DNA of 64,000 nt from Paramicrobacterium agarici (GTDB taxonomy: Bacteria > Actinomycetota > Actinomycetes > Actinomycetales > Microbacteriaceae), in assembly GCF_002563955.1 (NCBI RefSeq), contig NZ_PDJE01000001.1, positions 2,542,001 through 2,606,000 of the forward strand. The letters run 5' to 3'. Shown here piece by piece: positions 57,883 to 64,000 of this stretch (positions are counted from its first letter, which is position 1; each line of letters starts with the position of its first letter). Under the pieces are notes generated by a model. The model was not told the DNA's origin. It did not search any database and saw only the letters and a list, made by a program, of their open reading frames with translations. The translations under genes and the position numbers were made by a program.

Positions 57883-59136
57883 ATGGCCGCCGACGAATCC
57901 GGGTTCTCACTGCGTACGGTCGCCGCCGCCGTCTACCTCCCCACGCTGCTGTTCGGTATCGGTGAAGGTGCCCTGATACCTCTGATACCCGCAGCTGCCT
58001 CCGGGCTGGGCGCAACGATCGCGATCGCGGGCACGATTGCTGCGATGCTCAAGATCGGTGAGCTGATCGGTGATATTCCCAGCGGCGTCCTCGTGAGCCG
58101 CATCGGCGAACGTACGGCCATGATCCTCGCCGTCGCGGTGGCGCTTGTCGCCGCCGTGATGATCATGCTCGCGCCGAACCCTGCAGTGCTCGGAATCGGC
58201 GTGTTCGTGCTCGGACTGGCGACAGCAGTGTTCGCGCTCGCGCGCCACGCATTCATGACGACATACGTCCCTCTGCGCTACCGTGCCCGCTCCCTGTCTC
58301 TGCTCGGCGGCGTCTTCCGCTGCGGACATTTCGTCGGCCCTCTCGTCTCGGCGCCGATCATTCACCTGACGGGCGGCATGGCCGGCGTGTACTGGACGAT
58401 GGTCGTGTTCTGCCTGAGCGCGGCCATCGTGCTCCTCGTGCTTCCCGACCCTGAGAAGCTCTTTCGATCGCGCCGGAGAAGCGGCGAGCCCGCGGCTGCT
58501 CGGGAACGGCGCAGCTCCGGAATCGTCTCGACGATCGGCCAGAACCGGCGCGTCCTCGGCACGGTCGGCGTCGGTGCAGCGATCCTTTCGGCGTTGCGTT
58601 CCGCGCGAACGGTGATCATTCCTCTCTGGGCTGTGAGCCTCGGTGTCGACGAAGCAGCTACCGCGTTGATCATCGGACTCGCCGGTGCGGTGGATTTTGC
58701 ACTCTTCTACGTGAGCGGACACATCATGGACACGTACGGTCGCCTGTGGGGCGCGCTGCCGCCGCTGATCGGGCTCGGCGCCGGCTTGGCCGTACTCGCG
58801 TTCACACACGGCGCGCCGACAGCTGTGATCTGGATGTGCATCGCCGCCGGGCTGCTTGCCGTTGCGAATGGCATGAGCAGCGGCATCCTGATGACCCTTG
58901 GAGCCGACCTCGCCGGCCCACGAGATCCCGCCCCGTTTCTCGGCGCGTGGAGATTCGTCACGGATGCTGGCGCCGCGACGAGTCCGCTGCTCATCGCGGG
59001 TATTACGGGGGCAGCATCACTTGCTGTCGCAGCGGGTAGCTTGAGCGGCGTCGCCGTCGTCGGTGTCGCCGTCATGGCGACATGGCTCCCGCGATACATC
59101 GATCCACAGCATGCGCGGCGGTCAGTCGAAGACTGA
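57883..59136 (+). CDS. MFS transporter
   Basis: 417 residues from the ATG at 57883, seven bases after a GGAG; an ATG at 57868 is an alternative. Twelve membrane segments are likely. Motif A-like region GVLVSRIGERTAMI follows TM2. A central loop (SRRRSGEPAAARERR) separates the two halves. Divergent from prfB; convergent with the tad locus, overlapping it by 15 bases. Substrate unknown. Confidence 0.85.
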   Translation: MAADESGFSLRTVAAAVYLPTLLFGIGEGALIPLIPAAASGLGATIAIAGTIAAMLKIGELIGDIPSGVLVSRIGERTAMILAVAVALVAAVMIMLAPNPAVLGIGVFVLGLATAVFALARHAFMTTYVPLRYRARSLSLLGGVFRCGHFVGPLVSAPIIHLTGGMAGVYWTMVVFCLSAAIVLLVLPDPEKLFRSRRRSGEPAAARERRSSGIVSTIGQNRRVLGTVGVGAAILSALRSARTVIIPLWAVSLGVDEAATALIIGLAGAVDFALFYVSGHIMDTYGRLWGALPPLIGLGAGLAVLAFTHGAPTAVIWMCIAAGLLAVANGMSSGILMTLGADLAGPRDPAPFLGAWRFVTDAGAATSPLLIAGITGAASLAVAAGSLSGVAVVGVAVMATWLPRYIDPQHARRSVED

Positions 59137-59556
59137 GCGAGCGACGCTCGTCGCCTCGACCCTGATGCCCTCCGGAACGAAAAGCGTCAGAACGGGCGGT
59201 CTCCACCAGCTCGACACCGTGACTGTCGCGCTCACGCCATCTAGGCTTGTCGCCCTCTCGATTGTGAGTCCTTCGACGTCGTCGAACGCTGGATCCTCGA
59301 GGAAGGCGGTGACCGCGTCATCGACATCGTCTGGTGCGAGAGAGAGCTCGGGAGCTCCGCCTTCTGTTGTCACCTCAGCGAGAGAGAACGCCTCCGCGCC
59401 GACGAGCGATGCAGCGTCGGCGATGGCGAAGAGCTGCCGTCGCTCCAGATAAAGCGATGTGGCAGCCGCCACGATCAGAATCAGCAGCAGTGACAGCGCG
59501 CCGTAGAAGATCGTGAGGATCAGCGTTGATCCTTCGTCGTCGGGCCGACGGGTCAT
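59122..59556 (-). CDS. TadG-like pilus-assembly protein
   Basis: 144 residues. A single N-terminal membrane segment after a DEGSTLILTIFYGALS start, then RRQLFAIADAASLVGAEAF, which is typical of Flp pilus-assembly TadE/G-like proteins. The rest is extracellular. Overlaps the preceding TadE-like gene by four bases. Role in the pilus is inferred. Confidence 0.75.
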   Translation of the reverse strand: MTRRPDDEGSTLILTIFYGALSLLLILIVAAATSLYLERRQLFAIADAASLVGAEAFSLAEVTTEGGAPELSLAPDDVDDAVTAFLEDPAFDDVEGLTIERATSLDGVSATVTVSSWWRPPVLTLFVPEGIRVEATSVARSVFD

Positions 59557-60020
59557 GGCGCACCCCAGAATCGCGAGACTTTCTGCACGGCGGTCGCCTG
59601 CACGGGAACACTCGCTGCGGAATCGACATCGAGAACGTCGGGGACCAGAGGAAGCGGAACTCTCGCGGTGACGGTCACCGTGACGATCTCACCGCGCTCG
59701 AGGCACTCTGCCCCCGAGCCGGAGTCGCACGATATGACGACGTGCGCGTCATCGCTCTCGACGCCGAAATCGGCAAGGCTGATGTGTACGGCCGTTTCGA
59801 CGCGGGCCAGTGCGTCGTCCGCAGATTCAGCGAGCACAAAGACCCGAGCCGCTTGTTTGGCGGCCCCGCTCACGGCGAACGAGCTTCCTTGAATCTGAGA
59901 CAGCGCCACGATCAGGTACACAAGCGGAACGAGCAGGATGAGCCCCGCGGTAATGAACTCGAGAGACGACGAACCACGCTCATCGCCAAGCGCGTCAGTC
60001 CAACGTTTCGCGAACGGCAT
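59553..60020 (-). CDS. TadE-like pilus protein, second copy
   Basis: 155 residues from the ATG at 60020, which follows GGAGG nine bases upstream; ATG at 60041 is an alternative. The N terminus DERGSSSLEFITAGLILLVP is TadE-like, with E at +5 after the Gly. Then an extracellular domain with two cysteines (ISCDSGSGAEC). It overlaps the first TadE-like gene by 26 bases. Confidence 0.75.
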   Translation of the reverse strand: MPFAKRWTDALGDERGSSSLEFITAGLILLVPLVYLIVALSQIQGSSFAVSGAAKQAARVFVLAESADDALARVETAVHISLADFGVESDDAHVVISCDSGSGAECLERGEIVTVTVTARVPLPLVPDVLDVDSAASVPVQATAVQKVSRFWGAP

Positions 60021-60396
60021 GCCCCGATACCTCCAAGCCATGCTCGATTCCCACGAGACCGATGATGGGAAGTGTTGTCGTCACCGTCACTTCGGCACAC
60101 GGTTGTCCATTCCACGTTTCATACGACACGTCGATATCGCCCGCGTAGCCCTCGCCGATCGCGGTCGTGATGAGCTGTCGGGTTCGCTCTGCACCGTCGG
60201 CACGGGTGGTATCTGCGAGCGCCGCCGTTCGAGCGCCCTCGGCAGCGGCATCCAGAACCGTATTGCGCACGAGGAGAGCCAAGCCCAGCTGTATGACGCT
60301 CAGTGTGAGCACGGTGAGCAGCCCGGCGACGAGCGAGAACTCTGCGACGGCGGAGCCGCTGTCGTCGCGAATCCTGCGACTCAGTGCAGCCGACAT
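59995..60396 (-). CDS. TadE-like pilus protein, first copy
   Basis: 133 residues from the ATG at 60396, overlapping the small pilin stop by one base (TGATG). N terminus DDSGSAVAEFSLVAGLLTVL shows a G-x5-E pseudopilin-like start and a single membrane segment. The C-terminal part includes a Cys in QPCAEVTVT. A minor pilin or assembly factor is inferred. Confidence 0.78.
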   Translation of the reverse strand: MSAALSRRIRDDSGSAVAEFSLVAGLLTVLTLSVIQLGLALLVRNTVLDAAAEGARTAALADTTRADGAERTRQLITTAIGEGYAGDIDVSYETWNGQPCAEVTVTTTLPIIGLVGIEHGLEVSGHAVRETLD

Positions 60397-60569
60397 CACA
60401 TTCCGGTGACCTTTGCAATGGCCTGCTCGAAGATCGCGCTCAAGGCCGGTCCGGCCAGTCCCCAGATCAGAATGACAAGACCCGCTGTCATCAACGTGAT
60501 CAGAACCCAGCCCGGAACATCCCCGGTCTCGTCCGTCACGTCGAGCATTCTTCTTTTCAGTGTTTTCAT
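60396..60569 (-). CDS. Small Flp/pilin-like membrane peptide
   Basis: 57 residues from the ATG at 60569, preceded by GAGGAGAAA. A basic start (MKTLKRRM), then a short acidic stretch (DVTDETGDVPG), then one hydrophobic segment of about 22 residues and a short tail. Position between tadC and tadE is where Flp pilin genes lie. It lacks the Glu at +5 of a normal Flp processing site (sequence after G16 is DVPGW), so processing may differ or the gene may encode a pilin-associated peptide. Confidence 0.72.
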   Translation of the reverse strand: MKTLKRRMLDVTDETGDVPGWVLITLMTAGLVILIWGLAGPALSAIFEQAIAKVTGM

Positions 60570-60602: not shown

Positions 60603-61544
60603 TCAGAACCCTGCGCGCAGAACGAAGATTCCGGGAAGGAGCGCAAACGCGATCGACAGCGGCAGGATCAGCAGTACGAGCGGCACGAGCATCGCGACTT
60701 CCTTGCGCCCTGCTGCCTCAAGAAGCGTTCGCTTCAGGTCGTCCCGCGCGTCTTGCGCTTGCGCTCTCAGAACCTGAGCAATCGGCGATCCGTGCTCCAT
60801 GGCCGCGCACATCTGCTCGATCGCGCGCGTCAGCGATGGCGAGTCGACACGTCCCGCGCACGTTGTCAGCGCGTCGGCAACAGGCACTCCCGCTGATGTA
60901 TCGACGAGCACCCGCCGCAGCTCGACGCTCAGTTCGCCTGAGCCCACCCTCGCGATTCTGCGCAGTGCGTCGGTGATGCCTTCGCCCGCAGACAGGGACA
61001 AGCTCAGGAATTCCAAGACCGTCGGCACCTCCTCGCTGATCTGGGACACGCGCGTGGTGGCTCGGCGTCGCAGCACGAGGTCGCAGGCGATGACTCCCGT
61101 GACGGCGAGAACGATCGGCATCGCGACGGCAGCCATTGGTCGAGAATTCTGCACAAGCACAACGCCGAATCCGATGCCCACGACGAGCCCGGCACTCGCA
61201 GCGAGGACCTGACGCGCGCGAAACTGCTGCACCGTCAGGGGCGACCCCGACTGCGCGAGCCATTTCGCCACGGAGACGTTGCCGCCGAGTGTCGCGGAGA
61301 GTAGGTTCGCTGCACGACTGATGGACGGGCCGAGAAGCCTGCCGAGGACGGGAAGTGGATCGGCGACGCGACGCTGCGTCATTTGACGCGCCTCGTCTGA
61401 GATGTCGAGAAGGTAGGGGGCGATTCTCTCGGAGAGGCGGGGCGCTCTCAATCGAGGCATCGCAGCCGTCATCGACCAGAGTCCCGTGCCGAGAAGGCAA
61501 CCGAGCACGATCGCGAGTCCGACGTATTCCGTCAACGAAACCAT
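60603..61544 (-). CDS. TadC-like type II/IV secretion inner-membrane protein
   Basis: 313 residues. T2SSF domain with EEVPTVLEFLSLSLSAGEGITDAL and membrane segments at the N terminus (about 5-25), the middle (about 110-155) and the C terminus (about 285-308). With TadB it forms the inner-membrane platform of the pilus assembly machine. Overlaps tadB by 13 bases. Confidence 0.86.
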   Translation of the reverse strand: MVSLTEYVGLAIVLGCLLGTGLWSMTAAMPRLRAPRLSERIAPYLLDISDEARQMTQRRVADPLPVLGRLLGPSISRAANLLSATLGGNVSVAKWLAQSGSPLTVQQFRARQVLAASAGLVVGIGFGVVLVQNSRPMAAVAMPIVLAVTGVIACDLVLRRRATTRVSQISEEVPTVLEFLSLSLSAGEGITDALRRIARVGSGELSVELRRVLVDTSAGVPVADALTTCAGRVDSPSLTRAIEQMCAAMEHGSPIAQVLRAQAQDARDDLKRTLLEAAGRKEVAMLVPLVLLILPLSIAFALLPGIFVLRAGF

Positions 61545-62404
61545 CTCCGCTCTTCGGGAAGCCGCCCGAGAGCGAGCATGAAACGGTAGGCGACGACAGA
61601 GACGACGGCCCCGGCAACGATGACGGTGATGCCGATCGGCGAGTTGTACGCGGCCGCTGCTTCAGGACGAGAGGCGAGCAGAAACAGGATGAGCCAGGGC
61701 GCCGCGACGCCGAGCTTCGCTGCGTTGCGGACCCATGACTGTCGTGCATCGACTTCGGAGCGAATTCCCGAATCCTCGCGAATCGCCGCCGAGAGACTTC
61801 GCAGAACGCCCGGCAGCTCCGTTCCACCGACATCTCTCGCCATCTTCAGAGTCTCGATGATCCTGTCTGCGACGGGGTCGCCGAGGTCGTTCTTGAGCCG
61901 ATCGAGGGCGCCGCCGAACGACGCGGACGTGCGGTAGTCGCGGGCAAACCCGCGGAACGATGCGCGCAGTGCGTCCGGGCCCGCATCGGCCAGCTGGGCG
62001 ACGGCCTCGGGAAGGGCGGTTCCGGCGCGAATTGACGAGACCAGGTGGTCGACGACGTCGGGCCACAACATGCGATGCGTGCGTCGAGTCGCTCTCGCGC
62101 GCCAGGTGACGATGAGAAGCGGCGTGAGCGCGCCGCCGAGTGCTGCGAGAAGAGTGAGAACGACGATTCCGAACATGGCCTGGACAATGCCCCCGGCAAC
62201 TCCCGCGAGTAGAACGCACGCGACGATGAACGCCGGAACAGGAACCATTCCGAGCCCTGAGAGCGACAACCGAGTTCGAAGTTCGCGCGCCAGGCGTCCC
62301 TGCGTCGTCCGCTTCGGCAGGATCGTCGTGTGGGGGAAGACCATCGAGACGACGATCAGCACTCCCCCGAGGCCGACCAGAGCTCCCAACGCAATGGCGA
62401 TCAC
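61532..62404 (-). CDS. TadB-like secretion inner-membrane protein
   Basis: 290 residues from a GTG at 62404, which overlaps the tadA stop by four bases. The T2SSF domain includes WPDVVDHLVSSIRAGTALPEAVAQL. Membrane segments lie at the N terminus and at both ends of the domain. Expected partner of the TadA ATPase and TadC. Confidence 0.87.
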   Translation of the reverse strand: MIAIALGALVGLGGVLIVVSMVFPHTTILPKRTTQGRLARELRTRLSLSGLGMVPVPAFIVACVLLAGVAGGIVQAMFGIVVLTLLAALGGALTPLLIVTWRARATRRTHRMLWPDVVDHLVSSIRAGTALPEAVAQLADAGPDALRASFRGFARDYRTSASFGGALDRLKNDLGDPVADRIIETLKMARDVGGTELPGVLRSLSAAIREDSGIRSEVDARQSWVRNAAKLGVAAPWLILFLLASRPEAAAAYNSPIGITVIVAGAVVSVVAYRFMLALGRLPEERRWFR

Positions 62405-63192
62405 GCGGCACCCCGGGTGACGAGCTCAGCGACGTCGATGCCAGCCGCGGCATACTTGTCCTGCCGTTCCGGTACCGCACCTGTTGCCGTCAAGCCCTCA
62501 CGGGTGCGTCGGTAGATCGTCGTCGATTCGAGCTGTCCGTCGCTGGCTCGTCCGGTTGGAGCGGCGATCTCGACGACCCGTCGCACTCCCCCGGCGTCAC
62601 GTGAGCAATGCACAACGAGATCGATGCACGACGCGACCGTCGGAACGACGAACGCGGCGTCGATGTTCGAACCGGCCAACAACGGCAACGTGCACAACTT
62701 TCGAAGGGCGTCGTCCGCAGAGTTCGCGTGCAACGTGCAGGCGCCGGGAACTCCCGAGTTCAGCGCAATGAGCAGATCGAGGCTCTCTGCCTCGCGGACC
62801 TCGCCCACGACGATGCGGTCAGGGCGCATGCGCAGCGATTCCTTGATGAGACGTCGAAGCGTAATCTCGCCTGTTCCCTCGAGGCTCGGCTGGCGACACT
62901 GCATCCCCACGACATCCGCTGCTGTCACGTCGAGTTCGAACGTCTCCTCGACCGTGATCATGCGCTCCGACTGCGCCACGGAGTTCAGAAGCGCACCGAG
63001 CAGCGTCGTCTTGCCCGCCTGGGTCGCGCCGGACACGAGAACGTTGCACCCGACGCGAACACTCCGTGCCAAGAACTCCGACGCCTCGCGAGTGAGGGCG
63101 TCGCGCGCGACAAGGTCACCGAGCGTCCTGATGCGCGTCGTGAACTTGCGGATGTTGACTGCCATGTGCCTGCGGGTCACGAACCCTCGCAT
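62401..63192 (-). pseudogene. TadA/CpaF pilus ATPase, truncated at the 5' end
   Basis: 263 residues remain of a protein that normally has 380-450. From VTRRHMAVNIRKF onward the sequence matches the conserved ATPase half: Walker A GATQAGKTT (55-63), RMITVEET, RPDRIVVGEVREAE (Walker B) and HANSADDALRKL. The first four residues (MRGF) are not family-like, and the ATG at 63192 lies at the edge of a recombinase-associated repeat. The missing N-terminal half would be expected on the other side of the inserted element. The ATPase core could still be produced but probably cannot hexamerise normally. Confidence 0.75.
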
Positions 63193-63209
63193 GTTGCAGC
63201 GAATGCAAC
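63192..63209. repeat. Recombinase-site-like repeat 1 at the tadA truncation
   Basis: TGTTGCAgcgAATGCAAC: an inverted repeat (GTTGCA/TGCAAC) around five bases. It shares TGTTGCA-n3-AATGCAA with repeat 2 at 63330-63346, in direct orientation. Inverted arms around a short spacer are the layout of a tyrosine recombinase core site. Confidence 0.55.
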
Positions 63210-63300
63210 TGTTGACACTTGCAAACGAGGACTATTGGTCTCGGTCGGGCTGGTCCGCTCTGACCCTAACAGCGAGATCACGCGCCTCCCAAGATCCGAC

Positions 63301-63330
63301 TTGACTCGGTGATGCGCTATCCCATACTTT
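63301..63330 (+). promoter_or_regulatory. Candidate promoter of the recombinase gene
   Basis: TTGACT (63301-63306) is followed at 17-18 bases by ATACTT/TACTTT (63324-63330). The ATG lies ten bases later, with no ribosome binding site, so a leaderless or nearly leaderless transcript is likely. Confidence 0.45.
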
Positions 63331-63346
63331 GTTGCATCTAATGCAA
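63330..63346. repeat. Recombinase-site-like repeat 2 overlapping the recombinase start
   Basis: TGTTGCAtctAATGCAA: same 14 fixed bases as repeat 1, 138 bases away. It spans the ATG of the recombinase gene, so a bound recombinase could block its own synthesis. The 120 bases between the repeats hold one further half-site (TTGCAA near 63219) and no gene. Confidence 0.5.
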
Positions 63347-64000
63347 GATTTTGGGAGCTCTCCAGCCGCACTTCGACTGCTCACCTCGGCGTCGAACGTC
63401 GCTTTGGCGAACCCGGAGCAGCAGGTCTTCGACGCGATGATGGACGGCTGGCGGAATCAGCAGCTGTCGCGAGGGCTCCGTGAGCAGACCATCCAGAACC
63501 GCGTGGCGACGGTGGCCCGCTTCCGGGAGTTCGCGGACAAGCCGCCGTGGAAGTGGACGGTCGCTGACGTTGACGAGTTCACAAGGGAAGCCACCGATCG
63601 CAGGCTGGCGCTGTCCACTCTGCGTCACCACCATGGCGCAATCCGCGGGTTCTGCGACTACCTGACGAATCCGTTGTACGACTGGATGGAGATCTGCGAA
63701 CGGGAGTTCGGCGAGATCCCGTCGCAGGTGTGCTTGCCATGGAACACGGTCGCGCATCGGTTTGAGTTCGAGGGCGACGGAAAGCGCCGGCCGTTCACCT
63801 ACGACGAGGTGGAGCGCCTGTTCGACACCGCTGACGCCCGGGTTGAGTTGCTCGTGAGCTCGGGACGAAAAGGCGCGCTCGGGGCGCTGCGGGACGCGCA
63901 GCTGCTGAAGACGGTCTACGCGTTCGGGCTGCGCCGCACCGAGGTGGTGATGCTCGACACCGTCGACCTGCACCACAACGCCAAGATGCGCCAATGGGGA
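63341..64000 (+). CDS. Tyrosine recombinase (site-specific integrase), partial
   Basis: 220 residues from the ATG at 63341 to the window edge, no stop seen. An N-terminal SAM-like core-binding domain (about 25-115) with STLRHHHGAIRGFCDYL precedes the catalytic domain, which begins near RPFTYDEVERLF. The first catalytic Arg is R198 in AFGLRRTEVVML. The remaining catalytic residues (K, H-x-x-R, H/W and Tyr) lie beyond the edge. Its orientation, its position against truncated tadA and the flanking repeats make it the likely agent of the insertion. It could be the first of several recombinases as in RIT elements. Confidence 0.82.
   Translation, partial: MQDFGSSPAALRLLTSASNVALANPEQQVFDAMMDGWRNQQLSRGLREQTIQNRVATVARFREFADKPPWKWTVADVDEFTREATDRRLALSTLRHHHGAIRGFCDYLTNPLYDWMEICEREFGEIPSQVCLPWNTVAHRFEFEGDGKRRPFTYDEVERLFDTADARVELLVSSGRKGALGALRDAQLLKTVYAFGLRRTEVVMLDTVDLHHNAKMRQWG

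Follow-up and report, generated by a model that had tools for sequence, protein, structure and literature searches.

A Tn554-like transposon cuts the pilus motor gene tadA of Paramicrobacterium agarici at a recurrent integration site of Microbacteriaceae

Introduction

What has cut the tadA gene of P. agarici, how cleanly was it cut, and why would such an insertion persist? The question is raised by the right end of the window, the whole stretch of 64,000 nucleotides analysed here (G000:C1:2542001-2606000, within the complete 3.23-Mb contig of this genome, G000), where the ATPase gene of a tad cluster lacks its 5' part and abuts a recombinase gene of the opposite strand (Table 1). Very probably, a Tn554-like transposon cut tadA precisely, at a gene that is an integration hotspot, and the Tad pilus would be lost while the element is in place.

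Table 1. Features of the tad cluster and of the inserted element, by position in the window
Feature	Position	Strand	Remarks
TadG-like protein	59122..59556	-	PF13400, E 3.5e-06
Second TadE/F-like ORF	59553..60041	-	Assigned by position; no Pfam hit
TadE-like pilin	59995..60399	-	PF07811, E 2e-10
Flp-pilin-like ORF, 57 aa	60396..60569	-	Read by eye
tadC	60603..61544	-	T2SSF, E 2.4e-17
tadB	61532..62404	-	T2SSF, E 4.3e-05, below family cut-off; dN/dS 0.11 to G004
tadA, 3' part, lacking residues 1-151	62401..63181	-	End of NTD2 and RecA-like CTD with Walker motifs
Left end of the 12,073-bp transposon	63182..64000, runs beyond window	.	Terminal sequence conserved in 22 other copies
Left terminal bases AACCCTCGC	63182..63190	.	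Junction reading
Palindromic repeat TGTTGCAGCGAATGCAAC	63192..63209	.	88% direct repeat pair; similar in relatives
tnpA, 374-aa tyrosine recombinase	63329..64000, 453 bases more past window end	+	R, HxxR, GH, Y
Second repeat copy, over tnpA start	63330..63346	.	Same 88% direct repeat pair

The interrupted tadA gene

The ATPase fragment matches PF00437 (E 4.9e-32), and its match to TIGR03819 scores under the family cut-off. As an initial annotation made from the letters alone had stated, it keeps TadA from VTRRHMAVNIRKF on without the N-terminus: its match to the intact 409-aa protein of G004, of the same genus, starts at residue 152. The N-terminal 150 codons lie where that annotation proposed to look for them, beyond the element and on the same strand (G000:C1:2617255-2617706). 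Aligned with the G004 protein, the two parts correspond to residues 1-154 and 152-409, the first match including a few chance residues of the element. They join after the GA of the Asp codon in HVVIPD^VTRRH, between codon bases 2 and 3, with 0 bases gained or lost compared with intact relatives and thus no footprint; inspection of both junctions revealed no terminal or target duplication. The interruption also held up against the relatives that could have contradicted it, as tadA is full-length, in one frame and free of the element in the three same-genus genomes G001, G003 and G004. An assembly error is unlikely, given the single complete contig and the identical junction in seven other genomes.

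The two halves match residues 97-229 and 238-446 of CpaF chain 9e24_A, covering NTD2 and CTD, which places the break inside NTD2 and leaves the 3' piece without NTD1 and most of NTD2. Since the nucleotide pocket of CpaF is described as lying between NTD2 and CTD (PMC11300603), the motor, and with it pilus function, would likely be lost.

Other details of the initial reading had to be revised. The gene does end at the element, at 63181/63182 and not at 63192, 11 bp away. The only ATG (reverse strand, 63192-63190), which had been attributed to a repeat, lies in the terminal bases of the element and overlaps the palindrome at 63192-63209 by one base only. The six downstream tad genes had been called intact, and all their frames are indeed open. 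The CpaE-like gene envisaged upstream is not the direct neighbour of tadA, which is a divergent ORF, DedA-like by eye. Elsewhere, at about G000:C1:453547-458637 (L147), G000 has another tad cluster and in it a further TadA (462-aa frame); by eye, this cluster appears complete, with a possible CpaE-like gene upstream.

The inserted element

The element extends over 12,073 bp, from window position 63182 to G000:C1:2617254, and its right end is CTACCAGTA (L003). The plus-strand gene from 63329, which had been read as belonging to a tyrosine recombinase element, indeed encodes a tyrosine recombinase (PF00589, E 1.6e-19). The repeat TGTTGCAGCGAATGCAAC is a probable, predicted binding site of a recombinase or regulator. 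TnpA (374 aa) is followed by a 111-aa HTH_26 protein (Cro/C1-type) and a protein of 653 aa. These precede an ORF judged ArsR-like by eye, another that weakly matches ArsO, CmtR, a P-type ATPase of the CadA type and a DF-family-like protein. Next come two LMW-phosphatase-type (arsenate-reductase-like) proteins, one of them an ArsR fusion, and finally an SBF-family transporter, which we take to be ACR3-like, a thioredoxin and a pyridine-nucleotide reductase resembling thioredoxin reductase. By these annotations, the element carries putative arsenic and cadmium resistance genes. In the 7.4-kb copies of L051-L054 and L057, a CmtR-CadA-like cadmium module is apparent by eye, with ORFs like those of G000 (L051 is partial), and relative to these copies the arsenic block and the thioredoxin genes are an addition of G000.

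The catalytic R, HSLRH, GH and Y are present in the TnpA of L003 and in most of the rows listed of 25 aligned TnpA, that of L062 having H in place of the first R. The model of the 653-aa partner (L003:2792-4753) is similar in fold to XerA/Cre (Foldseek E 1.9e-05, query TM 0.21; pLDDT 78.8, pTM 0.39), and the usual tyrosine-recombinase catalytic motif is not recognisable in its 25 homologs. The position of the first Arg is occupied by Q, H, P or others, the His of HxxR is gone and LGH is changed to LGI, LGL or LGV. Around the Tyr position, W stands in 23 of the 25 and Y in the most distant one, from G136, the L053 sequence being out of frame; two invariant arginines, R524 and R604, are close by. 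Judging from these residues, the partner is probably inactive as a recombinase. Its N-terminal half contains 24 cysteines invariant in 14 sequences, which probably form many zinc ribbons.

Relatives on plasmids (260 records for the 653-aa protein at E 1e-3 and 200 for TnpA at E 1e-20) come mostly from Streptomyces, Rhodococcus and Arthrobacter, which matches the actinobacterial Tn554-related class as described by Van Houdt et al. (2012, PMC3414803). The G000 element is a Tn554-like, site-specific actinobacterial transposon; nine of 22 other copies use other sites.

Other copies of the transposon

Scanning the genome collection for TnpA yielded 33 loci, and the left end was visible in 22 copies besides that of G000. 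This end is common to all 22 and reads mostly AACC, with AACGG and AACTA once each. Five copies are inserted at the same tadA base (L054, L055, L057, the second copy of L060, and L068) and eight in a gene for a umuC-type polymerase of the Y family (L051, L052, L056, L061, L069, L071, L072 and L075), identified by PF00817/PF11799 profile matches run on L052 and L061; the insertion of L075 has a different place in the umuC-type gene and the opposite orientation. The sites of the other nine match neither tadA nor umuC at E 1e-6, and two of them (the first copy of L060, and L064) adjoin the end of another copy. At L064:9853 and L060:9823-9850, a copy directly abuts the right end of another or follows it at a distance of a few tens of bases, the arrangement expected of tandem integration.

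Both tadA halves are visible in L054 and L057, and the C-terminal half alone within the analysed stretch in L055, L060 and L068. The same insertion is found in G063 (72% TnpA identity) and G136 (44%), where 56.7 and 36.5 kb separate the halves, which brings to seven the genomes other than G000 whose tadA is cut at this base by relatives of TnpA. The insertion in G000 is thus one case of a recurrent tadA hotspot, a recurrence that the initial annotation had missed. The right end was searched with the CTACCAGTA pattern, and its constancy is therefore partly by construction; G136 has CTACCAGTA and G063 ends in GTGCCAGCA. Footprints are absent here too: tadA residues 151 and 152 abut in L054 and L057, and in umuC the IMS profile of L052 reaches 80 with 81 as the next residue, while the second part in L061 starts at 81. 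The ATG at the element end is absent in L054, which has CCAG there, and is therefore not a conserved restart.

Unrelated elements in tadA

In G002, of the same genus, tadA is split by 41.3 kb that encode a terminase and, with 486 aa, a serine integrase (PF00239, PF07508), with the 11-bp word CACGTTGTGAT at both junctions. Beside the integrase of this prophage, inspection by eye showed two ORFs, one HTH-like and the other with an ImmA-like HExxH motif (G002:C1:1382487-1383558). G104 harbors a 54.4-kb insert at the same Asp codon as the transposon, with a terminase and a serine integrase 42% identical to that of G002; the 6-bp CGGACA on both sides is a weak reading by eye. These serine-integrase prophages cut tadA within about 20 bp of the TnpA site. 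A 12-kb insert with another serine recombinase is located about 20 codons upstream in the tadA of G099. Further upstream, 65 codons from the TnpA site, inserts of 10.7, 15.1 and 13.9 kb interrupt EEIW^INS in G028, G134 and G122, with direct repeats of 11-12 bp (TCTGG(A/C)TCAAC); their tyrosine integrases are related (58% and 44% to that of G028).

In total, tadA is cut in 14 different genomes including G000, with both halves visible in 11, and at least four recombinase groups use it in Microbacteriaceae. The tadA of G097 was not counted, as it shows a contiguous frameshift in the Walker region and no insertion (L141, G097:C1:2449001-2452000). The insertion sites lie in conserved tadA DNA: ranked among 15-nt windows across 22 genes, site 2 falls in the top 0.1-5% and site 1 in the top 5-13%. 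No report of mobile elements in tadA was found among the top matches listed from the open PMC full-text literature, subscription papers being outside the scope of that search.

Frequency of split genes

Among the 160 genomes of the family sample, 111 have a tadA match at E 1e-60 and 49 have none. Large inserts within one contig split tadA in 7/110 genomes (G000 left out) from six genera. This count may be too low, because the C-terminal query misses breaks inside that part and because the screen, which followed the eight shortest frames (reduced genomes aside), left out G149 (frame 355, match 5-194) and frames of 356-393 aa.

Similarly, comM/yifB (TIGR00368), which was added as a competence gene once the outcome for tadA was known and, being positive, is not a negative control, is insert-split in 8/150 genomes (G106, G163, G152, G081, G083, G067, G146 and G112), a count that excludes G171 and G092 (halves on two contigs) and G026 (N part only). 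The inserts measure 8.6-74 kb, and six of the eight splits are near profile residue 300. Matches to the serine recombinases identified here were found in four of the five comM inserts read (G106, G152, G081 and G083; not G112). The comM of G000 itself is intact.

Three control genes presented no insert-split. For recN the count is 0/158, with 153 full-length genes, contiguous frameshifts in G012 and G160, and partial genes in G124, G132 and G138, those of G124 and G138 starting at a contig end. For uvrA it is 0 among the 150 matches listed, all full length (G012 from position 20), 156 of 158 passing the cut-off. For aceA, 79 genomes match and 0/69 over the cut-off are split; ten further matches score far lower (about 110 bits) and likely represent a related family. 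The two adjacent aceA pieces of G099, about 95 bases apart, were attributed to a frameshift.

Against the pooled controls (0/377), Fisher tests, which ignore kinship and use one genome per species, give p 2.6e-5 for tadA and 3.8e-5 for comM, or 0.0017 and 0.0027 when the three recN partials are taken as splits. Against aceA alone the values are 0.044 and 0.059, a weak excess for tadA. Insertions in tadA are in excess over comparable genes, as represented by three control genes only, and these may be costlier to lose than tadA.

Age of the insertion

Compared with G004 or G003, the two tadA parts of G000 have dN/dS values of 0.03-0.09, and tadB, tadC, both TadE-like genes and TadG values of 0.09-0.16, the intact pair G003-G004 being close to these at 0.06-0.13; all are rough, as dS exceeds 1 in 33/42 comparisons. 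The tadA and tad genes of G000 and G002 contain no stops. Purifying selection on both tadA halves and on five downstream genes indicates that the insertion is either recent or reversible and often excised, and the data fit both alike. The initial annotation had offered a recent interruption or a new promoter; its first suggestion stands, extended to reversibility, and no evidence was found for the promoter.

Why insertions in tadA persist

The transposon entered between the second and third bases of the Asp codon without leaving a footprint. We propose that the split inside N-terminal domain 2 of the motor would leave the cell without this Tad pilus while the element is present, and that clean excision would make tadA whole again. 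It is quite possible, at a little under an even chance, that insertions of this kind are maintained because Actinobacteria take up DNA by means of Tad pili and an element that prevents transformation avoids its own removal by that route. In Micrococcus luteus, tad deletions are reported to abolish transformation, the tadB deletion causing a >100-fold drop in one orientation, and both tad clusters are required, with possible polar effects noted by the authors (PMC4322843). The second tad cluster of G000 might substitute for the split one, although M. luteus needs both of its own (PMC4322843). Elsewhere, mobile elements break comYC, comK, comFA, comM and radC, a pattern interpreted as elements evading their curing from the chromosome (Croucher et al., 2016, PMC4774983), and the same model was put forward for pneumococcal prophages (PMC12637031). 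The splits in tadA and comM fit this model. Somewhat more tentatively, tadA may be a selected target in Microbacteriaceae, on which four or more recombinase groups converge, with several elements on comM, silenced transformation protecting the elements.

Recombinases might equally settle in conserved, dispensable coding DNA such as tadA with no gain from pilus loss, a serious rival to selection that we hold as a real possibility, with yet a little more reserve. The insertion sites coincide with conserved DNA, so neutral targeting would explain them without selection; the TnpA family also enters umuC-type genes (PF00817) and nine other places, meaning that its choice of target is not competence-specific; and tadA looks dispensable, given the 49/160 family genomes without a match at E 1e-60. 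However, recN, uvrA and aceA, which are likewise conserved and can be dispensed with at least in part, have 0/377 insert-splits, several unrelated recombinase groups converge on tadA, and comM, a second competence gene, is split at a similar rate. This last point also weighs against superinfection exclusion, whereby elements, especially prophages, would remove a Tad pilus used as receptor by other phages, since comM is no surface structure. Tad pili are described as phage receptors in Caulobacter (PMC11067988), the inserts of G002 and G104 carry phage terminase genes and serine integrases, and that of G134 has a tape-measure-like ORF (by eye). On the other side, an overview of the TnpA-type inserts recognised no phage genes, and no actinobacterial phage using Tad pili was among the literature matches listed. 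Exclusion is improbable.

A reversible switch, in which the element would silence and restore the tad operon through reinsertion and excision, in the manner of active lysogeny, would agree with the zero-footprint insertion, with purifying selection on both halves and with the 11-bp core repeat at both ends of the G002 prophage. Recent insertion explains the same data, however, and related strand-biased elements are reported, in the part of the source drawn on, to leave no empty site (PMC10214605). Regulated excision was not seen in the present data; a switch is unlikely, if less so than exclusion. It is most improbable that the C-terminal fragment works as a short ATPase from a new promoter in the element. 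The frame is open with an ATG and the Walker motifs are intact, but NTD1 and most of NTD2 are missing, and CpaF without NTD1 is described as having lost phage infection, with expression not readily detected (PMC11300603). A short restart or new promoter was rejected, as the ATG is part of the terminal bases of the element and lacks conservation, being absent from L054.

Whatever maintains these insertions, unrelated elements have repeatedly broken a single pilus motor gene with base precision. This amounts to a natural genetic screen and points to a function whose loss may benefit the elements; alternatively, such elements may simply exploit conserved tadA DNA. We know of no competence work in Microbacteriaceae. 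If DNA uptake is the function in question, transformation by Tad pili would be a general trait of this family, and the conflict between transformation and mobile DNA would become testable in Microbacteriaceae. If tadA is a selected target, the Tad pilus would be the DNA-uptake pilus throughout the family and not in Micrococcus alone, and the intragenomic-conflict model would extend to Actinobacteria. The mapped sites are natural attachment sequences for several recombinase groups, and annotators should expect split tadA and comM genes in this family.

Comparison with known systems

The disruptions described by Croucher et al. (PMC4774983) share with those reported here the recurrent insertion of unrelated elements in a transformation-related gene, comM being hit in both cases. 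Here, however, the elements hit the motor ATPase of the Tad pilus in Actinobacteria, a gene that the part of that paper used does not name. Tn554 and the strand-biased circularising integrative elements (PMC10214605) are likewise site-specific and carry several recombination proteins and resistance cargo. Tn554 makes no target duplication according to the same source, in the part drawn on, and neither does the element of G000. In contrast, those elements are described as leaving a 6-bp footprint at the new site and as encoding two proteins with the RHRY motif, whereas here the footprint is zero in tadA and umuC and TnpA alone has the motif. The Tn554 type encodes a small TnpC, and the element of G000 encodes a 111-aa protein that matches HTH_26. 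The closest likeness is to the Tn554-related actinobacterial transposons (PMC3414803), which occur in the same hosts and in which an ordinary and an abnormally long protein of tyrosine-recombinase type are adjacent. Compared with that class as described in the part of the source consulted, a Cro/C1-type HTH gene lies here between the two, the long partner is without a recognisable motif, and the chromosomal targets tadA and umuC are now defined.
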